From: Georgenia satyanarayanai
GTDB taxonomy: Bacteria; Actinomycetota; Actinomycetes; Actinomycetales; Actinomycetaceae
Reading direction: 5' to 3'
NCBI RefSeq assembly: GCF_900116375.1
Contig: NZ_UETB01000016.1
Coordinates: 1-64,000, forward strand
Length of the DNA stretch: 64,000 bases
The notes below the pieces were generated by a model. That model did no database searches, was not told the origin of the DNA, and saw only the letters and a program-made list of their open reading frames with translations. Within the stretch, counting starts at the first letter, position 1, and every line of letters begins with the position of its first letter. This document shows, one piece after another, positions 23,910 through 58,998 of this stretch. The translations under genes were made by a program, and so were the position numbers.

Positions 23910-23995
23910 GCGCCGAGTGTGGCAGCGCGGCTCGGCCGACGCGCGGTGTCCGCACGGGGAGCAGCAGCTCGGCCGTCGGCGAGGTCCCCTCGTGC

Positions 23996-24152
23996 GCCGA
24001 GAGGTGAGTTGTTCCTGGCGTGCCGGCTAACAACTCAGCGCTCGGCGATAGGGGTGGGGGCGTGCGGCCGTGCGGCGGGATCCGGCTCTCGGCGATGGGG
24101 GTGGGGCGTGCGGCGGGAGGGGGGACTCTGGGCGCCGAGAGGTGAGTTGTTA
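23996..24152. repeat. Dispersed repeat locus 1 (three copies)
   Basis: Copies of the family core are at 23995-24013 (minus: AACAACTCACCTCTCGGCG), 24028-24047 (plus: TAACAACTCAGCGCTCGGCG) and 24133-24152 (minus: TAACAACTCACCTCTCGGCG). The first two face each other and could pair into a long imperfect hairpin. Two G-rich tails (24048-24075 and 24085-24120) resemble each other. The third copy supplies the polymerase stop codon. Confidence 0.75.
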
Positions 24153-29364: not shown

Positions 29365-29503
29365 GGTCCCTGTCGCATCGGCGAGGCGGTACGGCCGGTC
29401 CCATTCTCGTCCCCGGTCGCGCCGTCCGCCTGGGCCCTGTGGTGCTGGTCTGCTCCCGGGGGGTCGAGGCTGCCGCCGGCCGGCCGGTGGCGCCCTCCGG
29501 TGC

Positions 29504-29580
29504 AACAACTCAGCTGTCGGCGGGGAGGGGGTGCGCCGTGTCGGCGAGGAGAGGGTGCGCGTGTCGGCGGGGAGGGGGCG
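29504..29580 (+). repeat. Dispersed repeat locus 2 with a 23-24 bp tandem tail
   Basis: AACAACTCAGCTGTCGGCG (29504-29522) followed by a G-rich tail. The tail unit TGTCGGCG-G/AGGAG-G/AGGG-T/CGCGC starts at 29515, 29539 and 29562, a threefold tandem. It lies between the P-type ATPase and AMIN-like genes; I see no gene in 29365-29630. Confidence 0.75.
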
Positions 29581-31008: not shown

Positions 31009-33582
31009 GTGGCCTCACTCCTGCACCGCCTCGGACGATGGAGCGCCCAGCACCGCTGGGCGACCGTCGTCACGTGGCTCGTCGTCATCGCGCTCGCCGC
31101 GACCGGCGCCGCCACGCTCAGTGAGCCGCTGAGCGACGAGTTCAGCATCCCCGGCAGCCGCTTCCAGGTGGTGCTCGACGACCTCCAGGAGGAGATCCCG
31201 GAGGCCGCCGCGGGCATCGGGACCGTGACCTTCTCCGTGGAGGACGGCTTCACCGACGAGCAGCGCGCCGCCGTCGCCGACGTCACCGAGCGGTGGAGCG
31301 CGCTGGACGGCGTCGTCGGGGCCACCGACCCCTTCGCCACGCAGGAGCAGCTCGACGGCAGCCTCGAGGAGATCGAGGCCGGCCGCGCCGAGCTCGCCGC
31401 GGGGCGGGAGCAGCTCGAGGCGGGCCGCGCCGAGCTCGAGGCGGGACGCGAGCAGCTCGAGGCCGCCGAGGCCGAGCTCGCCGCGGGCCGGGAGCAGCTG
31501 GAGGCCCAGCGCGCCGAGCTCGAGGCCTCGATCGACATGATGCCGCCGGCTATGGCCGCCGGGGCCGAGCAGGAGCTCGCCGCAGCCGAGGCCGAGCTGG
31601 CCGCCGGGGAGGAGCAGCTCGCCGCCAGCCGCGCCGAGCTCGAGGCCGGTGAGGAGGAGCTCGCCGCCGCCGAGGCGGAGATCGCCGCCGGGGAGACCCA
31701 GCTCGACCAGGGCGAGCGGCTCGCCGAGCTCACCGACGGCCTGCGCCAGGTCTCCGAGAACGGCACCGTCGCCATGACGCAGGTGCAGTTCGAGTCCGCG
31801 GGTGGGCAGCTCGACCCCGAGGTCACCGCGGAGGTCCAGGAGATCGGTGACACGCTCGCCGACGAGGGCGTCGAGGTGAACTACAGCGCCGAGATCGTCT
31901 CCGACATCTCCTCCATCCTCGGCCCGGCCGAGGTCGTGGGTGTCGTCGTCGCAGTCGTCGTCCTCCTCGTCCTGCTCGGGTCCCTGCTCGCCGCGGGTCT
32001 GCCGCTGCTCACCGCGCTCGTGGGTGTGGGCGTCGGTGTCGGCGCCTCGCTGGCGCTCAGCGGCGTCGTGGAGATGACGAGCGTGACCCCGGCCCTGGCC
32101 CTCATGCTCGGCATGGCCGTGGGCATCGACTACTCCCTGTTCATCCTCAACCGCCACCGCATGCAGCTGGCCGACGGCATGAGCGTGCGCGACTCGATCG
32201 CCCTCGCCACCGGCACCGCCGGCAACGCCGTCACCTTCGCCGGCGCGACGGTCGTCATCGCGCTCGCCGCGCTCGGCCTCACCGGCATCCCCTTCCTCGG
32301 CGTCATGGGCTACGTCGCGGCGGGCACCGTCGTCGTCGCCGTCCTCGCGTCGGTCACGCTCACCCCGGCACTGCTGTCCTTCCTCGGGGAGCGGGTGCTG
32401 CCGGCCAAGCAGCGCACGCGCCTGGCGCGCAAGAACGGCGCCGACTCCCGCGGCTGGGCCTACAAGGTCCAGCAGCACCCGTGGCTCGCGATCATCGGCG
32501 TCGTCGCCATCACCGGGCTGCTCGCGATCCCCACCACCCAGCTGCGCCTGGGGCTGCCCGACGGCAGCCAGGAGGCGGCCGACTCGACCGCCTACCGCAC
32601 CTACGACCTCATCCGGGACAACTTCGGGGCGGGCGCCAACGGCCCCATCATCGGCGTCGCCACCCTGGAGGAGCCGACGCAGGACGAGGCCGCCCTCACC
32701 GCGACCCAGCTCGACATCGCCGAGGACCTCCTCGCCGTCGACGGCGTCCAGTACGTCGTGCCCTTCGGGACGAGCGAGGACGGCGACACCCTCGCCTTCC
32801 AGGTCATGCCGGCCGACGGCCCGTCGGAGGAGTCCACGGTCGCGCTGGTCAACACGCTCCTGGACAGCGAGGACGAGCTCGGTGCCGCGCACGGCGTCCA
32901 GATGGGCTTCACCGGGCAGACCGTGGCGAACATCGACATCTCCGACCAGCTGGCCGACGCGCTGCCGCTCTACCTGCTCGTCGTCGTCGGGCTCTCGCTC
33001 GTCCTGCTGCTCCTCGTGTTCCGCTCGATCTGGGTGCCGCTGCTCGCCTCGGTGGGCTTCCTCCTCACGGTCGTCGCCTCCTTCGGCGCCGTCGTCGGGG
33101 TGTACCAGCTCGGGTTCCTCTCCGACCTGTTCGGGGTCAACGAGGCGGGGCCCATCCTCAGCTTCCTGCCGGTGCTCCTCATCGGGGTGCTCTTCGGCCT
33201 GGCGATGGACTACCAGGTGTTCCTCGTCTCGGGGATGCGCGAGGCGCACGTCCACGGGGCCGACGCGCGCGTCTCCGTCGTGCGCGGCTTCAACCAGAGC
33301 GCGCGGGTGGTCACGGCCGCGGCGATCATCATGATCTCCGTCTTCGGCGGCTTCATCTTCGCCCACCTCGCGATGATCCGGCCGATCGGCTTCGGCCTGG
33401 CCTTCGGCGTGCTCGTCGACGCCTTCCTCGTGCGGATGACGCTGACCCCGGCCGTGCTCAGCCTGCTCGGGGAGAAGGCGTGGTGGCTGCCGCGCTGGCT
33501 CGACAAGATCCTGCCGAACGTCGACGTCGAGGGCGCCAAGCTCGAGCGTCAGGTGGTCGCCGAGGAGCGCGAGACCGTCTAG
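31009..33582 (+). CDS. MMPL family RND-like transporter with long heptad-repeat domain
   Basis: 857 residues. After the first membrane helix (residues 20-38) a large external domain carries a heptad array (AGREQLE, AGRAELE, AAEAELA, AGEEELA) from about residue 115 to 235, a predicted long coiled coil. Twelve membrane helices are expected: segments include VVGVVVAVVVLLVLLGSLLA and, in the second half, ALPLYLLVVVGLSLVLLLLVF. MMPL signatures include AVGIDYSLFILNRHR and AMDYQVFLVSGMREA (D-Y pairs for proton relay). It probably exports lipids or drugs and is likely controlled by the upstream TetR. GTG 31009 has GGAAGGAA 7 nt upstream. Confidence 0.9.
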   Translation: MASLLHRLGRWSAQHRWATVVTWLVVIALAATGAATLSEPLSDEFSIPGSRFQVVLDDLQEEIPEAAAGIGTVTFSVEDGFTDEQRAAVADVTERWSALDGVVGATDPFATQEQLDGSLEEIEAGRAELAAGREQLEAGRAELEAGREQLEAAEAELAAGREQLEAQRAELEASIDMMPPAMAAGAEQELAAAEAELAAGEEQLAASRAELEAGEEELAAAEAEIAAGETQLDQGERLAELTDGLRQVSENGTVAMTQVQFESAGGQLDPEVTAEVQEIGDTLADEGVEVNYSAEIVSDISSILGPAEVVGVVVAVVVLLVLLGSLLAAGLPLLTALVGVGVGVGASLALSGVVEMTSVTPALALMLGMAVGIDYSLFILNRHRMQLADGMSVRDSIALATGTAGNAVTFAGATVVIALAALGLTGIPFLGVMGYVAAGTVVVAVLASVTLTPALLSFLGERVLPAKQRTRLARKNGADSRGWAYKVQQHPWLAIIGVVAITGLLAIPTTQLRLGLPDGSQEAADSTAYRTYDLIRDNFGAGANGPIIGVATLEEPTQDEAALTATQLDIAEDLLAVDGVQYVVPFGTSEDGDTLAFQVMPADGPSEESTVALVNTLLDSEDELGAAHGVQMGFTGQTVANIDISDQLADALPLYLLVVVGLSLVLLLLVFRSIWVPLLASVGFLLTVVASFGAVVGVYQLGFLSDLFGVNEAGPILSFLPVLLIGVLFGLAMDYQVFLVSGMREAHVHGADARVSVVRGFNQSARVVTAAAIIMISVFGGFIFAHLAMIRPIGFGLAFGVLVDAFLVRMTLTPAVLSLLGEKAWWLPRWLDKILPNVDVEGAKLERQVVAEERETV

Positions 33583-38069: not shown

Positions 38070-40184
38070 TCAGCCCACCGGCACCGCCTCGCGCACGAGG
38101 GCGAGCACCTGCGCCGCGGCGCGGTCTGCCCCCGCGATGAGCGGGGAGGGCACGCCCGGCGTCGCACCGATCGCCGAGCCGGGCTGGACGTCGCCGGCCG
38201 GGATGCCGATGACGACGACGCGCGGGTCGGGCCGGCCCGCGGCGTCGAGGAGGTGGAACTCCTCGGGCGTCACGTCCAGGGTGCGCGTCGCGGCCACCGT
38301 GCCGTCCGGGCCGGTGCGCGCGTGCAGGCGGGCCCGGCCGGAGTCGAGCAGCGAGCGCAGCAGCGGGTCGTCGGTGACGTCGGCGTGGCCCTTGGACATG
38401 CGGGTCTCGACGAAGGCCCGCACCCGGTGCTCGCGCCCGATCACCTGGGTGCGGGCGACGAAGCGTCCGCGTTCCACGGTGACGGACAGCCCCTCGCCGA
38501 GGAGCTCGACGACGCCGGCCCGCACGAGGGCGAGCAGCTGGGCCGTGCGCTCGGGCGGCGGGCCGGACGCGAGCGCGAGGCCCAGCGTGCCGAACCAGCC
38601 GTTGACGTCGCGGACGGCCGACGCCGGGTGGATGGCCCCGGCGCGCACGAGCCCGGCGACCTGCCCGCGCAGCACCGCCATCGCGCGGTTGACCTCCGCG
38701 CGCGGGCTGGCGAGCGGCCGGGTGATCGACTCGTGCTCCGCGGCGACCCAGCGCTCGGTCCACGCCCGCCACGCCTCGGGCGAGGGGAGGCGGACGTCGG
38801 GCCGGTCGAGGCGCTCGACGTCGAGGTGGCGGGCGGGGTCGACGACGACGTCACGGACGAGGCCGTCGAGCTCGCTCACGTCCGCGGCGGCGAGGCGAGC
38901 GAGCAGGCCCGCGGGGAGCTCGCCGTCGTCGGCGGTGAGGGAGGGAACGGTGGCGGGGTGGTGCCGGACCAGGGTGGTGAGGTGGGCGACGACGAACTCG
39001 CGGGCGAGCTGGGGCCACACGTCGCGCGCGAAGTCCTGGTCGGGGACCGTCGCGGCCGCGGCGAACCACTCGGGGGTGGCGAGACGCGGCGTGTAGCGGG
39101 GCGGCAAGGCGCCGTACCAGGACTTCGATCGGTAGGGCAGGCCGCGACGCGAGCCGACGAGCAGGCGCGGCTCGCGTCCGGAGGGGAGGTAGGTGAGATC
39201 GAAGGGGGAGTCGCCGGGGACGAAGCGGCCGCCGCGGCCGGCGGTGAGGACGGCGACGACGTCGAAGAAGTTCGCGCCGAGCCCGGCGACGACGACGTCC
39301 TGCCCGCCCGGCACGACGTCCCAGTCCCGCTCGGCCGGCATGCCCGGCTCGACGTAGACGAGCCCGTGGTCCTCCGCGGCCGCGACGCGCTCCTCGGTCT
39401 GCCGGGACCGCTCGGCCTGGACCATCCCCTGCGCGAGCACGACGGCGGCGGCGGAGAACGCCCGCCCGTCCGCGAGCCGCACGACGCGCCGACTCTCACT
39501 CCCCGCCGACAGCGCCCCCTCTTCCGCCGACAGCTCACGTGTTGCGGGCGCCCCCTCTTCCGCCGACAGCTCAGCTGTTACTGGCTCGATGTCGACGACG
39601 GTGCCCACCACTGCGGTCAGCTCCACACCACCGCGCGCGAGGATCGCCTCGAGCTGCTCGCGGAAGTACACGCCCTGCAGACGTCGGGTCGGGTAGGACC
39701 AGGGCTGGACGGCCGCCGCCTCCTCGGCCACCCAGTCGGGGCGAGATCCTGCGCTCCAGCCGGCGGACGCGGGCGCCGTCGGGCGCGGGACGCCGGCGAC
39801 GACGTCGCGCGCCCACTGCACGAGGTCGGGCCCGGTCGTCACCGGTCCGGACATCGGGGTGGAGTCGTCGGGGTAGATGGTCGTGTGCGCGCTGTAGGTG
39901 TTGTTGAGGAGCTGCGGGCTCTGGTCGGTGCGCCAGGTCGCACCGGCACCGACCTCGAAGCGGTCGACGACGACGACGCGCACCGGCCGCTCGGGCGTCC
40001 CTCGGGCCGTGAGCCGTTCGACGACGGAGGCCGCGCGCGGACCCCCGCCGACGATGACGACGTCGGCGCTCAGGGCACCGTCAGTAACAACTGAGCTGTC
40101 GGCGAAAGTGGGGGCGCCCGTAACAACTGAGCTGTCGGCGGGGAGGGGGGTCGGGGGAAGGGGGGTCGGGGTGGGACGGGTCAT
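38070..40184 (-). CDS. Large FAD/NAD(P)-binding protein with in-frame repeat insertions
   Basis: 704 residues. A Rossmann start ADVVIVGGGPRAASVVERLTARG (from residue 40) and LLNNTYSAHTTIYPDDS (NAD_binding_9-type) point to an FAD-dependent monooxygenase-like enzyme; a second nucleotide motif is VVVAGLGANFFDVVAVL. The first 39 residues include two copies of ADSSVVT, and residues 202-225 are two 12-mers AELSAEEGA/RELSAEEGA. Both are translations of a dispersed DNA repeat and are probably not part of the ancestral enzyme. Last gene of the leader-controlled operon, coupled to the ATPase gene. Substrate unknown; it may modify the imported compound. Confidence 0.82.
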   Translation of the reverse strand: MTRPTPTPLPPTPLPADSSVVTGAPTFADSSVVTDGALSADVVIVGGGPRAASVVERLTARGTPERPVRVVVVDRFEVGAGATWRTDQSPQLLNNTYSAHTTIYPDDSTPMSGPVTTGPDLVQWARDVVAGVPRPTAPASAGWSAGSRPDWVAEEAAAVQPWSYPTRRLQGVYFREQLEAILARGGVELTAVVGTVVDIEPVTAELSAEEGAPATRELSAEEGALSAGSESRRVVRLADGRAFSAAAVVLAQGMVQAERSRQTEERVAAAEDHGLVYVEPGMPAERDWDVVPGGQDVVVAGLGANFFDVVAVLTAGRGGRFVPGDSPFDLTYLPSGREPRLLVGSRRGLPYRSKSWYGALPPRYTPRLATPEWFAAAATVPDQDFARDVWPQLAREFVVAHLTTLVRHHPATVPSLTADDGELPAGLLARLAAADVSELDGLVRDVVVDPARHLDVERLDRPDVRLPSPEAWRAWTERWVAAEHESITRPLASPRAEVNRAMAVLRGQVAGLVRAGAIHPASAVRDVNGWFGTLGLALASGPPPERTAQLLALVRAGVVELLGEGLSVTVERGRFVARTQVIGREHRVRAFVETRMSKGHADVTDDPLLRSLLDSGRARLHARTGPDGTVAATRTLDVTPEEFHLLDAAGRPDPRVVVIGIPAGDVQPGSAIGATPGVPSPLIAGADRAAAQVLALVREAVPVG
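39500..39581 (-). repeat. Dispersed repeat locus 3, inside the flavoprotein gene
   Basis: Two 36-bp units on the minus strand, starting GTAACAGCTGAGCTGTCGGCG (39546-39581) and GCAACACGTGAGCTGTCGGCG (39510-39545), followed by a partial CTGTCGGCGG unit down to about 39500. The first unit is 33/36 identical to the unit at 40084-40119. Translated as VTAELSAEEGAP and ATRELSAEEGAL, in frame. Confidence 0.85.
40084..40156 (+). repeat. Dispersed repeat locus 4, at the flavoprotein N-terminus
   Basis: Two direct 36-bp units, 40084-40119 and 40120-40155, each starting GTAACAACTGAGCTGTCGGCG. Orientation is opposite to locus 3, so the host gene reads the other strand (ADSSVVT). The frame is kept because the unit is a multiple of three. 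Confidence 0.85.
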
Positions 40185-42126: not shown

Positions 42127-43226
42127 TGCGTGCCGCCGACGCTGACGTAGGCGTCCTCGCCCGGGTAGTCGGTGACGCCCTGGAACTCGGTGGCCCAGCG
42201 CTCGAGGTAACCGGCCGGGTCGAGGTCGGCCGTCTCCTCCGGGTGCAGCCAGGTGGCGAGGTAGGCGGTGGCGATCGCCTTGGCCAGCCCCGACGTCGCC
42301 CACCCGTTCGTCACGTAGACCTCACCGTTCTCGACGGCGCTGATCCCGGACCAGCCCGGCCGTGCGGGGATGCCGGCGACGATCTCGTCGACCTGCTCGG
42401 CCGGGTACGGGTCGGCCGACGGCGGCATCTCGTGGACGACGACGGCCGGGTCGCGCTCGACGACGGCGGCCGGGTCGACCGTGATCTCGTGCTGGGCGTC
42501 ACCGCCGGTGATGTCGCCGAAGACGTTGGTGCCGCCGGCGCCGGTGATGACCTGGTCGAAGCCCGAGCCGGGCAGCGCGGTGATGTAGGGCTGGTCGGTC
42601 TCCCAGTAGACCGGGACCGGCTCGAGGCCCGCGACGCTCTCCTCGACGGAGGTGACGATCTCGTCGTGGAAGTCCTTGACGGCCTGGGCGCCCTCGGGCT
42701 CCTCGAAGACCTCCCCGAGGATGCTGATCGTCTCCTCGAAGACGTCGACGTCCCAGGAGGTGACGACGACGACCGGGATGTCGAACTCCTCCAGCCGCTC
42801 CGAGGCCTCCTGCCAGGCGCCGTTGCGGGGGATGATCGCGACGTCCGGGTCGAGGGCGACGATCGCCTCGTAGTTGAGCTCGCCGATGCTCTCCCCGACG
42901 ACGTCCTCCTCGGTGAGCCCGAGGTAGGGCGCGCGCTGGACCGTGCCGCGGTCGACGCCGACGACGCGGTCGCCCGCGCCGATCGCCTCGACGAACTCGT
43001 TGTTGTAGGAGAGGGCGACGACGGCGCGGTCGACCGGGCCCTCGATCGTCACCTCCCGGTCCTGGTCGTCGACGACGGTGATCTCGCTCGCCCCGTCGGT
43101 GGTGGCGGCGTCGGAGGTCGCGCCGTCGTCGCCGTCGTCGCCGTCGGCGACCTCGACCTGGCCGCACGCCGCCAGCGTGAGGGCGGAGGCGGCGAGGACG
43201 GCGGCGGTGCGGGTGGTGCGGGTCAT
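42123..43226 (-). CDS. FecB/TroA-like ABC substrate-binding lipoprotein
   Basis: 367 residues. Signal peptide and lipobox LAAC at residues 18-21, an Asp/Gly-rich linker, then TVVDDQDREVTIEGPVDRAVVALSYNNEFVEAIGAGDRVVGVD, the entry of PF01497-type binding proteins. EAIVALDPDVAII and LDPAGYLERWATEFQG near the C-terminus agree. No feature fixes the ligand. ATG 43226 overlaps the upstream stop by 4 bp. This is the specificity subunit of the importer in the leader-controlled operon. Confidence 0.9.
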   Translation of the reverse strand: MTRTTRTAAVLAASALTLAACGQVEVADGDDGDDGATSDAATTDGASEITVVDDQDREVTIEGPVDRAVVALSYNNEFVEAIGAGDRVVGVDRGTVQRAPYLGLTEEDVVGESIGELNYEAIVALDPDVAIIPRNGAWQEASERLEEFDIPVVVVTSWDVDVFEETISILGEVFEEPEGAQAVKDFHDEIVTSVEESVAGLEPVPVYWETDQPYITALPGSGFDQVITGAGGTNVFGDITGGDAQHEITVDPAAVVERDPAVVVHEMPPSADPYPAEQVDEIVAGIPARPGWSGISAVENGEVYVTNGWATSGLAKAIATAYLATWLHPEETADLDPAGYLERWATEFQGVTDYPGEDAYVSVGGTQ

Positions 43227-44470
43227 CGGGTCTCTCCGGTGGTGGGGTCGGTAACTGCGCTGTCGGCGGCAAGTGCGCTGTCGGCGGCAAGTGCGCTGTC
43301 GGCGGTAAGTGGGGTGTCGGCGGGGAGGTGGGGCTCGCCGAGGGTGAGCATGAGGCGGTTGGCCCACGAGAAGAAGGCGACCGAGGCGACGAGGTCGACG
43401 AGCTCGACCGGCTCGAGGCCGAGCTCCCGCAGCCGCGTGACGTGCGCGGCGGTGGCGCGGGAGGGTGAGGCGGCCAGCGCGGCGGAGAGGTCGACGACCG
43501 CCGCCCAGCGCTCGTCCTGGCCGGCGCTCAGCGCGGTCAGGTCGGCCGGGGCCCACCCCGGTCCGCGGGGGACGTCGGCGGCGAGGAGGCGGTCGACGTC
43601 CTCGGGGCGCTTGCTCAGCTGCGCGGCCTTCCGGGCGTGGACGGAGGCGCAGAAGAGGCAGTCGTTGACCTTGCTCGTCACGGCGGCGGCGAGCTCGCGC
43701 TCGGCCCGCGGCAGTCCCACGCGGGTGAGGAAGACGGCGTGGTCGATCTGCGTGCGGGCGGCCAGCACGCCGGTCTCGCGGGCGAGGAGACGGAAGTAGG
43801 AGCCGTCGCTCTTGCCGGCGAAGGCGGCGCGGTGCTCGTCGGTCAGCTCCTCCGCGGGGATCGGCTCGACCCAGGGCAGCCAGCCGAGCAGCTCGCGGGT
43901 GTAGACGCGGGGCACGGGCAGCCCGTTCGGGGCGACGTCGGGGGCGTACTTCCCGCGCGCGGGCAGGTCTGCCGCCGGGGCGGGGGTGGCGCCATCGTCG
44001 TGGCCGGCGAGCAGTCGCAGCCCGGTGACGAGGCGGGCCTCGTAGGCGGTGACGGCGACGACCTGGGAGAGCAGGACGATGCCGTCCGCGTCGAGGCCGA
44101 CGGCGGTGAGCGCGGCGACGTCCTGCGGGGTGACGAGCGCGGGGGCGAGGGAGAGCAGGTCCGCGTGGCGCACGAGGGCGGCGACGGACTCGTCGGCCGT
44201 GGCGACGGTGAGGTCGACGGGGTCGTGCCGGTGGTGCTCCTGCGCCAGTCCCGGCGCGCCGTGCTGCTCGGCGACGCGCGCGGCCAGCGCCCGACGCAGC
44301 GCCGGGGACAGACGGCCGGGGTCGGTGAAGAGGTGGTCGTGGGCGCGCTGGGTGTGCTCGATGACCTCGGGCTTGGCGAGGCGTGCCTCGGCGGTGGCCG
44401 GGTCGAGCTCCGCGAGGACGCCGACGAGGTCCTCGCGGGCGGTGGGCGGGCGGTGGGCGGTGGCGGTCAT
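43223..44470 (-). CDS. CMD/alkylhydroperoxidase (AhpD-like) fusion protein
   Basis: 415 residues, apparently two carboxymuconolactone-decarboxylase-fold halves fused. Residues 1-170 (EVIEHTQRAHDHLFTDPGRLSP, LSQVVAVTAYEARLVTGLRLL) resemble the Cys-less CMD proteins of the Avi_7170 type. Residues 190-390 resemble the alkylhydroperoxidase-domain Avi_7169 type and hold the CxxC-x2-H site in NDCLFCASVHARKAAQLSK. The two are usually separate neighbours; family naming is from memory. The C-terminal tail consists of 6-residue repeats ADSALA made by a DNA repeat array. ATG 44470 has GGAG 9 nt upstream. It is the first structural gene behind the Cys-rich leader. Confidence 0.82.
   Translation of the reverse strand: MTATAHRPPTAREDLVGVLAELDPATAEARLAKPEVIEHTQRAHDHLFTDPGRLSPALRRALAARVAEQHGAPGLAQEHHRHDPVDLTVATADESVAALVRHADLLSLAPALVTPQDVAALTAVGLDADGIVLLSQVVAVTAYEARLVTGLRLLAGHDDGATPAPAADLPARGKYAPDVAPNGLPVPRVYTRELLGWLPWVEPIPAEELTDEHRAAFAGKSDGSYFRLLARETGVLAARTQIDHAVFLTRVGLPRAERELAAAVTSKVNDCLFCASVHARKAAQLSKRPEDVDRLLAADVPRGPGWAPADLTALSAGQDERWAAVVDLSAALAASPSRATAAHVTRLRELGLEPVELVDLVASVAFFSWANRLMLTLGEPHLPADTPLTADSALAADSALAADSAVTDPTTGETR
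43251..43322 (+). repeat. Dispersed repeat locus 5: four 18-bp units at the 3' end of the CMD gene
   Basis: Units 43251-43268 (GTAACTGCGCTGTCGGCG), 43269-43286 and 43287-43304 (GCAAGTGCGCTGTCGGCG, identical), 43305-43322 (GTAAGTGGGGTGTCGGCG), followed by GGGGAGGTGGGG. Each is 6 codons and keeps the frame of the host gene. Confidence 0.85.
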
Positions 44471-58834: not shown

Positions 58835-58998
58835 AATAACTCAGCTCTCGACGCGGGAGGGGGAGCCGTCGACGGGACGGGGGGAGCCGTCGGCGGGACG
58901 GGGGAGCCGTACGCGGGACGGGGGAGCCGTCGGCGGCACGGGGGAGCCGTCGGCGGGACGGGGGAGCCGTCGGCGGGAGGGGGGAGCCGTCGGCGGGA
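58835..58998 (+). repeat. Dispersed repeat locus 6: seven-unit 20-bp G-rich tandem array
   Basis: A divergent core copy (ATAACTCAGCTCTCGACGC, 58835-58853) leads into units containing GAGCCGT at 58863, 58884, 58904, 58924, 58944, 58964 and 58984 (20-21 bp apart), each GAGCCGTCGGCGGGACGGGG with small changes. It is intergenic between the GNAT and CNNM genes; no gene is seen in 58796-59023. Many G-runs on the plus strand suggest a G-quadruplex-prone stretch. Confidence 0.85.

Follow-up and report, generated by a model that had tools for sequence, protein, structure and literature searches.

A genus-specific family of dispersed short repeats with in-frame arrays at two sites of a flavoprotein gene in Georgenia

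The gene for a 704-aa FAD/NAD(P) protein of Georgenia satyanarayanai (38070..40184, minus strand, in the 64,000-nucleotide stretch of DNA that was analysed, here called the window) carries two tandem 36-bp repeat units after its start codon and two inverted units ~500 bp away, all of them in frame. These units probably belong to a genus-specific family of dispersed short repeats, similar in kind to REPs and to Rickettsia palindromic elements (RPEs), in which species dialects turn over; on this reading the arrays are ancestral in two tolerant segments of the host gene, and copies that break the frame have been purged. The family was followed through six genomes of the genus, namely the genome of the window, Oceanitalea stevensii (G065; L001), G. 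satyanarayanai P7 (G041; L002), G. satyanarayanai NBRC 107612 (G008; L011), a MAG (G101; L003) and the most distant of the six, G084 (L072).

Repeat units within the host gene

A sequence-only reading of the window had reported unit pairs of 36 bp at the N-terminus of the protein, reading ADSSVVT, and at an internal site reading AELSAEEGA, in opposite orientations and in frame; the sequence and the open reading frame both agree. N-terminal unit 1 (N1; 40084..40119; 36 bp, residues about 22-33) and N-terminal unit 2 (N2; 40120..40155; residues about 10-21, with a G-rich tail) lie on the plus strand, antisense to the gene, and ADSSVVT is read at residues 16 and 28. Internal unit 1 (I1; 39546..39581) and internal unit 2 (I2; 39510..39545) lie on the minus strand, in the sense of the gene, and encode AELSAEE or RELSAEE at residues about 203-227. 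A partial third internal unit, GCGCTGTCGGCGGGG, is found on the minus strand at about 39498..39513. The identity of 33/36 across the inversion that had been claimed for the units holds for N1 and I1 but not for the other cross pairs, at 25-29/36 (N1/I2 29, N2/I1 26, N2/I2 25). Within the arrays, N1 and N2 agree at 26 positions and I1 and I2 at 31, and the best 36-mer elsewhere in the window reaches 26/36. The 22-mer GTAACAACTGAGCTGTCGGCGG has 5 matches in the window at no more than 3 mismatches and none in 100 shuffles, so the repeat of the host gene is beyond chance.

The two arrays form inverted arms of 69 nt that are 86% complementary and 498 nt apart in a repeat search. A 72-base query taken from the internal array finds 69 places in its own genome and, itself apart, scores highest on the N-terminal array of the host gene (86 bits, with 88% identity across 69 bp), well ahead of the place that follows, at 58 bits. 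In this genome, then, the two inverted arrays have been homogenised with each other, by a mechanism that we can only infer. For the other genomes homogenisation is no more than suggested. The match between the reversed N-terminal array and the internal array is best within species for the genome of the window, for O. stevensii and for the MAG; in NBRC 107612 it scores 79 within the genome and 122 to the MAG, and in P7 it scores 41 within and 53 and 56 to others, with uncomplemented controls at 12-29.

The host gene and its protein

The protein is an aspartate N-hydroxylase-like flavoprotein. A Pfam search assigns it the domain NAD_binding_9, and the nearest solved structure is that of the aspartate N-hydroxylase FzmM (8cp2), residue 4 of which aligns with residue 41 of the host protein. 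The adjoining genes encode an ABC ATPase, an FecCD permease and a periplasmic binding protein, and from these neighbours its role may lie in a siderophore-like pathway. The assigned start codon seems secure. This ATG overlaps the stop codon of the ABC gene upstream, and no in-frame ATG, GTG or TTG follows it before the FAD fold reaches its first strand, the sole alternative being a CTG at codon 38; the N-terminal units are therefore translated, unless that CTG is the start.

Both inserts coincide with segments of pLDDT <50 (1-36 and 204-229) in a structure model that is itself modest, with a mean pLDDT of 64.7 and further low segments. The second of these segments sits between strands 187-201 and 233-237. 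The earlier proposal that the inserts are tolerated as flexible segments is borne out to this extent, that they are in frame and fall where model confidence is low. Inserts in low-confidence segments would also be expected of an ordinary low-complexity linker or a local minisatellite of the host gene, unrelated to other loci, but that reading is refuted by the occurrence of the same core at hundreds of other places, mostly non-coding. The window also contains other tandem repeats, among them coding repeats of 21/42 bp at 31344-31695, which are Glu/Leu/Ala-rich, coiled-coil-like by eye and unrelated to the repeat family, and a 135-bp repeat of 2.4 copies at 46-363.

Core, copies and range of the family

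The core of the family is 21 bp long with abrupt ends, has the consensus GKAACAASTSAGCTSTCGGCG and is followed by a short purine/G-rich tail. This description comes from 181 aligned copies in 54 stretches which, except for the window, were picked around the matches listed, and the sample is thus not a random one. Both strands carry the core about equally. A replication-strand polarity in G084, with the units of each chromosome half on a single strand, was suggested among the matches listed and was dropped, as the strands are mixed in twenty evenly spaced 20-kb stretches plus four.

The sequence-only reading was right that the repeat also occurs outside the host gene, for its own genome holds hundreds of copies: 46 of ACTGAGCTGTCGGCG at no more than 1 mismatch and 269 of AACAAGTGAGCTSTCGGCG at no more than 3, the reversed patterns giving 0 in each case. 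Copies of AACAASTSAGCKSTCGGCG at no more than 2 mismatches number 307 in this genome, 242 in G065, 117 in G008, 68 in G041, 10 in G101 and 3 in G084, and the reversed control yields a single match, in G065, and 0 in each of the other five. The core in its own dialect is present in 4/200 genomes of the taxonomic family, all 4 of the host genus, and in 5/396 genomes of the order, the fifth with one copy. A broader form of the core gives 108 copies in the genome of the window, 276 in G008, 17 in G041, 73 in G065, 118 in G084 and 9 in G101; it also occurs in 8/115 other genomes of the taxonomic family, with one copy each, which does not exceed the reversed control there. The repeat family is genus-specific: all 6/6 genomes of the genus have it, and in the 115 others it does not exceed chance.

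No match at the Rfam gathering score lies within the window, which rules out a known RNA family for the repeat there. We found no published report of such repeats in Georgenia or Oceanitalea, or of intergenic repeats in high-GC relatives, although this does not in itself show the family to be unpublished. At about 24080-24110 of the window the main core takes turns with another unit related to it, GCGGRATCCGGCTSTCGGCG, an alternation that is clearest in the syntenic stretch of P7 (L086-L089). The assembly of O. stevensii seems to break inside an array in a SpoU methylase gene (L117, L121; contigs C13, C8), so draft genomes may undercount arrays.

Placement and folding of the copies

The core occurs alone, in inverted dimers just after genes, and in tandem arrays whose units recur every 18 to about 77 bp. 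Most of the sampled copies, 208/243, are intergenic, and 35 are coding. The window itself has an intergenic cluster at 23995..24151 (orientations - + -) and a solitary intergenic unit on the plus strand at 29502..29522. Another solitary intergenic unit lies at 58835..58853 (plus), and in G065 and G008 this site also holds an inverted partner. Next to the unit, at 58853-58998, a 20-bp G-rich tandem repeat (GCGGGACGGGGGAGCCGTCG) runs for about seven copies; the corresponding site of G065, G008 and G041 does not show it. An 18-bp tandem variant on the plus strand occupies 43250..43322, at the 3' end of the gene 43223-44470.

The 57 intergenic clusters of the sample lie between convergent genes in 25 cases, co-directed genes in 27 and divergent genes in 5, against 5, 19 and 9 for the window's own gaps of at least 40 bp (Fisher p 0.006 for the convergent excess). 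Co-directed clusters are closer to the 3' end of the upstream gene in 22/27 cases, a count in which the 5' distance is inflated because the purpose-built scorer used for these gene calls tends to trim starts.

Neighbours of opposite orientation within 300 bp are arranged (-)(+) in 38 cases and (+)(-) in 16. Tight inverted pairs make hairpins of 43-44 bp that are close to perfect, two of which gave -25.4 and -25.7 kcal/mol when folded as DNA, and seven dimers with their flanks gave -52.7 to -68.4 kcal/mol when folded as RNA. Four single units folded as DNA formed no hairpin, at -0.6 kcal/mol, no better than shuffles. The arms of 37 close pairs covary, with a mean identity of 22.76/30 against a mean of 21.68 and a maximum of 22.59 in 2000 shuffles.

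At 300-2500 bp the order (-)...(+) prevails by 15 to 3, or by 12 to 3 if the host gene is counted once. This order could mean that the inverted arrays of the host gene are kept for pairing in the mRNA, where a long-range stem closing about 500 nt would control translation of the enzyme. In the predicted fold of the first 705 nt (-420.2 kcal/mol; z -9.5, from 20 shuffles) the arrays do pair as a single long stem, and the opposite orientations are kept in all six genomes. Pairing comes free with any inverted repeat, however, translating ribosomes would break the stem, and P7 has only one internal unit, so that we regard such a role as unlikely. That the unit is the terminal repeat of a transposon was also rejected, since by eye the seven loci read between (-) and (+) arrays hold what we take to be ordinary cellular genes. 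The sole unrecognised gene among them (L049:3013-3726) has no Pfam match. In the surrounding stretch (L049:2491-3809) it lies between four (-) and three (+) units, and its TAA stop falls within the first (+) unit, where it is provided by the GTAAC of the repeat.

Reading frame and selection

The 35 coding units of the sample include a few weak matches that possibly lie outside the family. Twenty-four run antisense to the gene that carries them, all but one of them (23/24) in a single codon phase, that of ADS. Core position 7 is C in 165/208 non-coding units and, when followed by A, then reads TGA in the ADS phase; 21/24 coding antisense units have G at this position. The spacing of coding units is a multiple of three in 19/19 cases with 18-bp steps and in 7/7 without, and that of non-coding units, 18-bp steps left out, in 24/60. 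Units in one gene are not independent, and both the spacing and the position-7 counts overstate significance for this reason. With multiples of three in only 24/60 of the intergenic cases, against 7/7 in genes, a length in multiples of three does not survive as a feature of the element, as the sequence-only reading had taken it to be; the keeping of frame is selection at coding sites.

Other genes carry units in frame, those for a SpoU-family methylase, GT9 and GT1 glycosyltransferases, an RNase H/His_Phos fusion, an FGE-domain protein and an HTH regulator. Their inserts fall in linkers or tails.

Orthologues, dialects and empty sites

The host gene is present in all six genomes of the genus, and both of its sites hold units in 6/6, with both orientations conserved; their occupation therefore dates back at least to the split of the six. 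A comparison of orthologues had been expected to reveal genomes that lack the inserts. Among the six none was found for the host gene. The orthologue of Georgenia subflava (L004) carries a repetitive tail of another kind, and the internal insert is missing from it as well as from nine orthologues of other genera (L005-L010, L012-L014). An empty site does exist in the genus for the SpoU methylase. The insert is present there in the genome of the window, P7, NBRC 107612 and O. stevensii (split by a contig end in the last) with differing peptides, and in G084 it is absent, with a short linker between the flanks; the MAG was left out of this count, its match being a weak paralogue. The array at 43250-43322, compared between genomes over 43251-43311, is likewise missing in G065 and G041 (13-14 bp); G008 has a longer array there and G084 one in a different dialect. 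Together, these differences mean gain or loss over genus time.

The number and sequence of units differ among relatives, with a single internal unit in P7 as an example, so the orthologues do not simply share the same residues with ordinary codon variation. The description of the repeat as recently mobile or amplified is partly upheld by this variation but not for the occupation of the two host-gene sites, which is old. Judged from these comparisons, what is recent there is the rewriting and recounting of units.

The dialect form of G084, GYGSRVAASTCSGCTSTCGYG, has 559 copies in G084 and 0 in the other five genomes, and that of G008 has 103 copies in G008, 2 in the genome of the window and 0 in the other four. 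Scored on unit profiles built from units outside the host gene, the two host-gene arrays of the genome of the window fit its own profile best (34.7 and 27.7 bits against at most 19.8), and those of G084 fit the G084 profile best (31.0 and 29.0 bits against at most 21.1). In G008 the N-terminal array favours the G008 profile and the internal array that of the genome of the window, by 34.0 to 26.0. Both arrays of G065 favour the latter profile too, that of G065 itself being made from 12 units only, and the internal unit of G041 fits none, the G041 profile having 7 units only. Only the arrays of the window's genome and of G084 clearly match the dialect of their genome, and elsewhere the picture is mixed.

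Dialects recall DNA uptake sequences, for which lineage-specific variants of one dispersed motif are described in the excerpt of PMC3630211. A DNA uptake signal (DUS/USS-like), built up by biased transformation, would account for the sharp core, the near-equal use of the strands, the species dialects and the inverted pairs near gene ends. Copies in the present family are, unlike uptake sequences, insertions that change length and form tandem arrays, and sites can be empty in sister genomes; the predominance of intergenic copies also speaks against a signal of this kind, which we consider improbable.

Comparison with known repeats

Mycobacterial MIRUs are variable-number interspersed units near gene ends, longer than the present units and not known to be made of inverted dimers. 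The present family shares with them the variable-number units near gene ends in an actinobacterium, but its units are shorter and form inverted dimers. A REPIN is an inverted pair of short units that forms a hairpin; the inverted pairs described here are similar as hairpins, but no RAYT was found in the genus and many copies are single or tandem.

REPs, as described in the part of PMC3733652 consulted, lie near the 3' ends of genes, enter genes in frame and hit some genes twice (O. terrae, R. conorii). The present family has the habits given there for intragenic REPs (GTAG/CGTC), with hundreds of dispersed copies, convergent or unidirectional intergenic sites, dimers, in-frame copies and a gene hit twice, and in that excerpt a REP also supplies a stop codon, TAG rather than the TAA of L049. 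Mobilisation by a RAYT (Y1 tyrosine transposase), as in a classical REP/REPIN system, would explain these habits, the short loops of the inverted dimers included. The monomer, though, is not a 20-40 bp palindrome and makes no hairpin, neither a GTAG nor a CGTC terminal tag occurs in the consensus of the 181 copies, and tandem arrays and species dialects are prominent. PF01797, the domain of the REP-type Y1 transposase (RAYT), which accompanies REPs of the GTAG type only, was found in 0/6 genomes of the genus, against 5/14 positive in the control. A classical system is accordingly very improbable.

RPEs are in-frame inserts that enter unstructured segments of unrelated proteins, according to the excerpts of PMC10969869 and PMC2996958. 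The present family is also in frame in unrelated genes, and in the FAD protein, the one modelled, its inserts fall in segments of low confidence. RPEs, about 150 bp and palindromic, are set apart by their description in those excerpts from the tandem cores of 18-21 bp found here in an actinobacterium of high GC content.

A proposed course of events

On the preferred reading, a REP/RPE-like dispersed family with dialect turnover, arrays would have entered the disordered N-terminal tail and an inter-strand loop of the enzyme gene before the genus split. Units would afterwards have been recounted and rewritten, largely following the repeat dialect of each lineage, and the inverted arrays of the host gene would have been homogenised with each other, for which the genome of the window gives the direct case. 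Selection would remove copies that break the frame or put TGA in the ADS frame, as the counts suggest. Spread and homogenisation would most likely proceed by hairpin-prone single-strand copying or by gene conversion between arms, with no resident Y1/RAYT transposase.

More tentatively, a homogenising molecular drive that needs no Y1 transposase may act on hairpin-forming repeats and overwrite hundreds of copies with the dialect of the lineage, so that protein linkers evolve in concert with non-coding repeats and inverted arrays in one gene copy each other. We consider this possibility less likely than not.

Selfish-looking repeats that genes tolerate are a known kind, of which this family is a new example, and it extends the range of such in-frame repeats to a genus of high-GC actinobacteria. 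Six genomes with differing units at two shared protein sites, together with a further gene that has an empty site, make up a clean comparative set, in which RAYT-free homogenisation of dispersed short repeats and the feeding of protein linkers by non-coding repeats become testable. If homogenisation is indeed concerted, the amino-acid sequence of the linkers would track the non-coding repeats of the whole genome.
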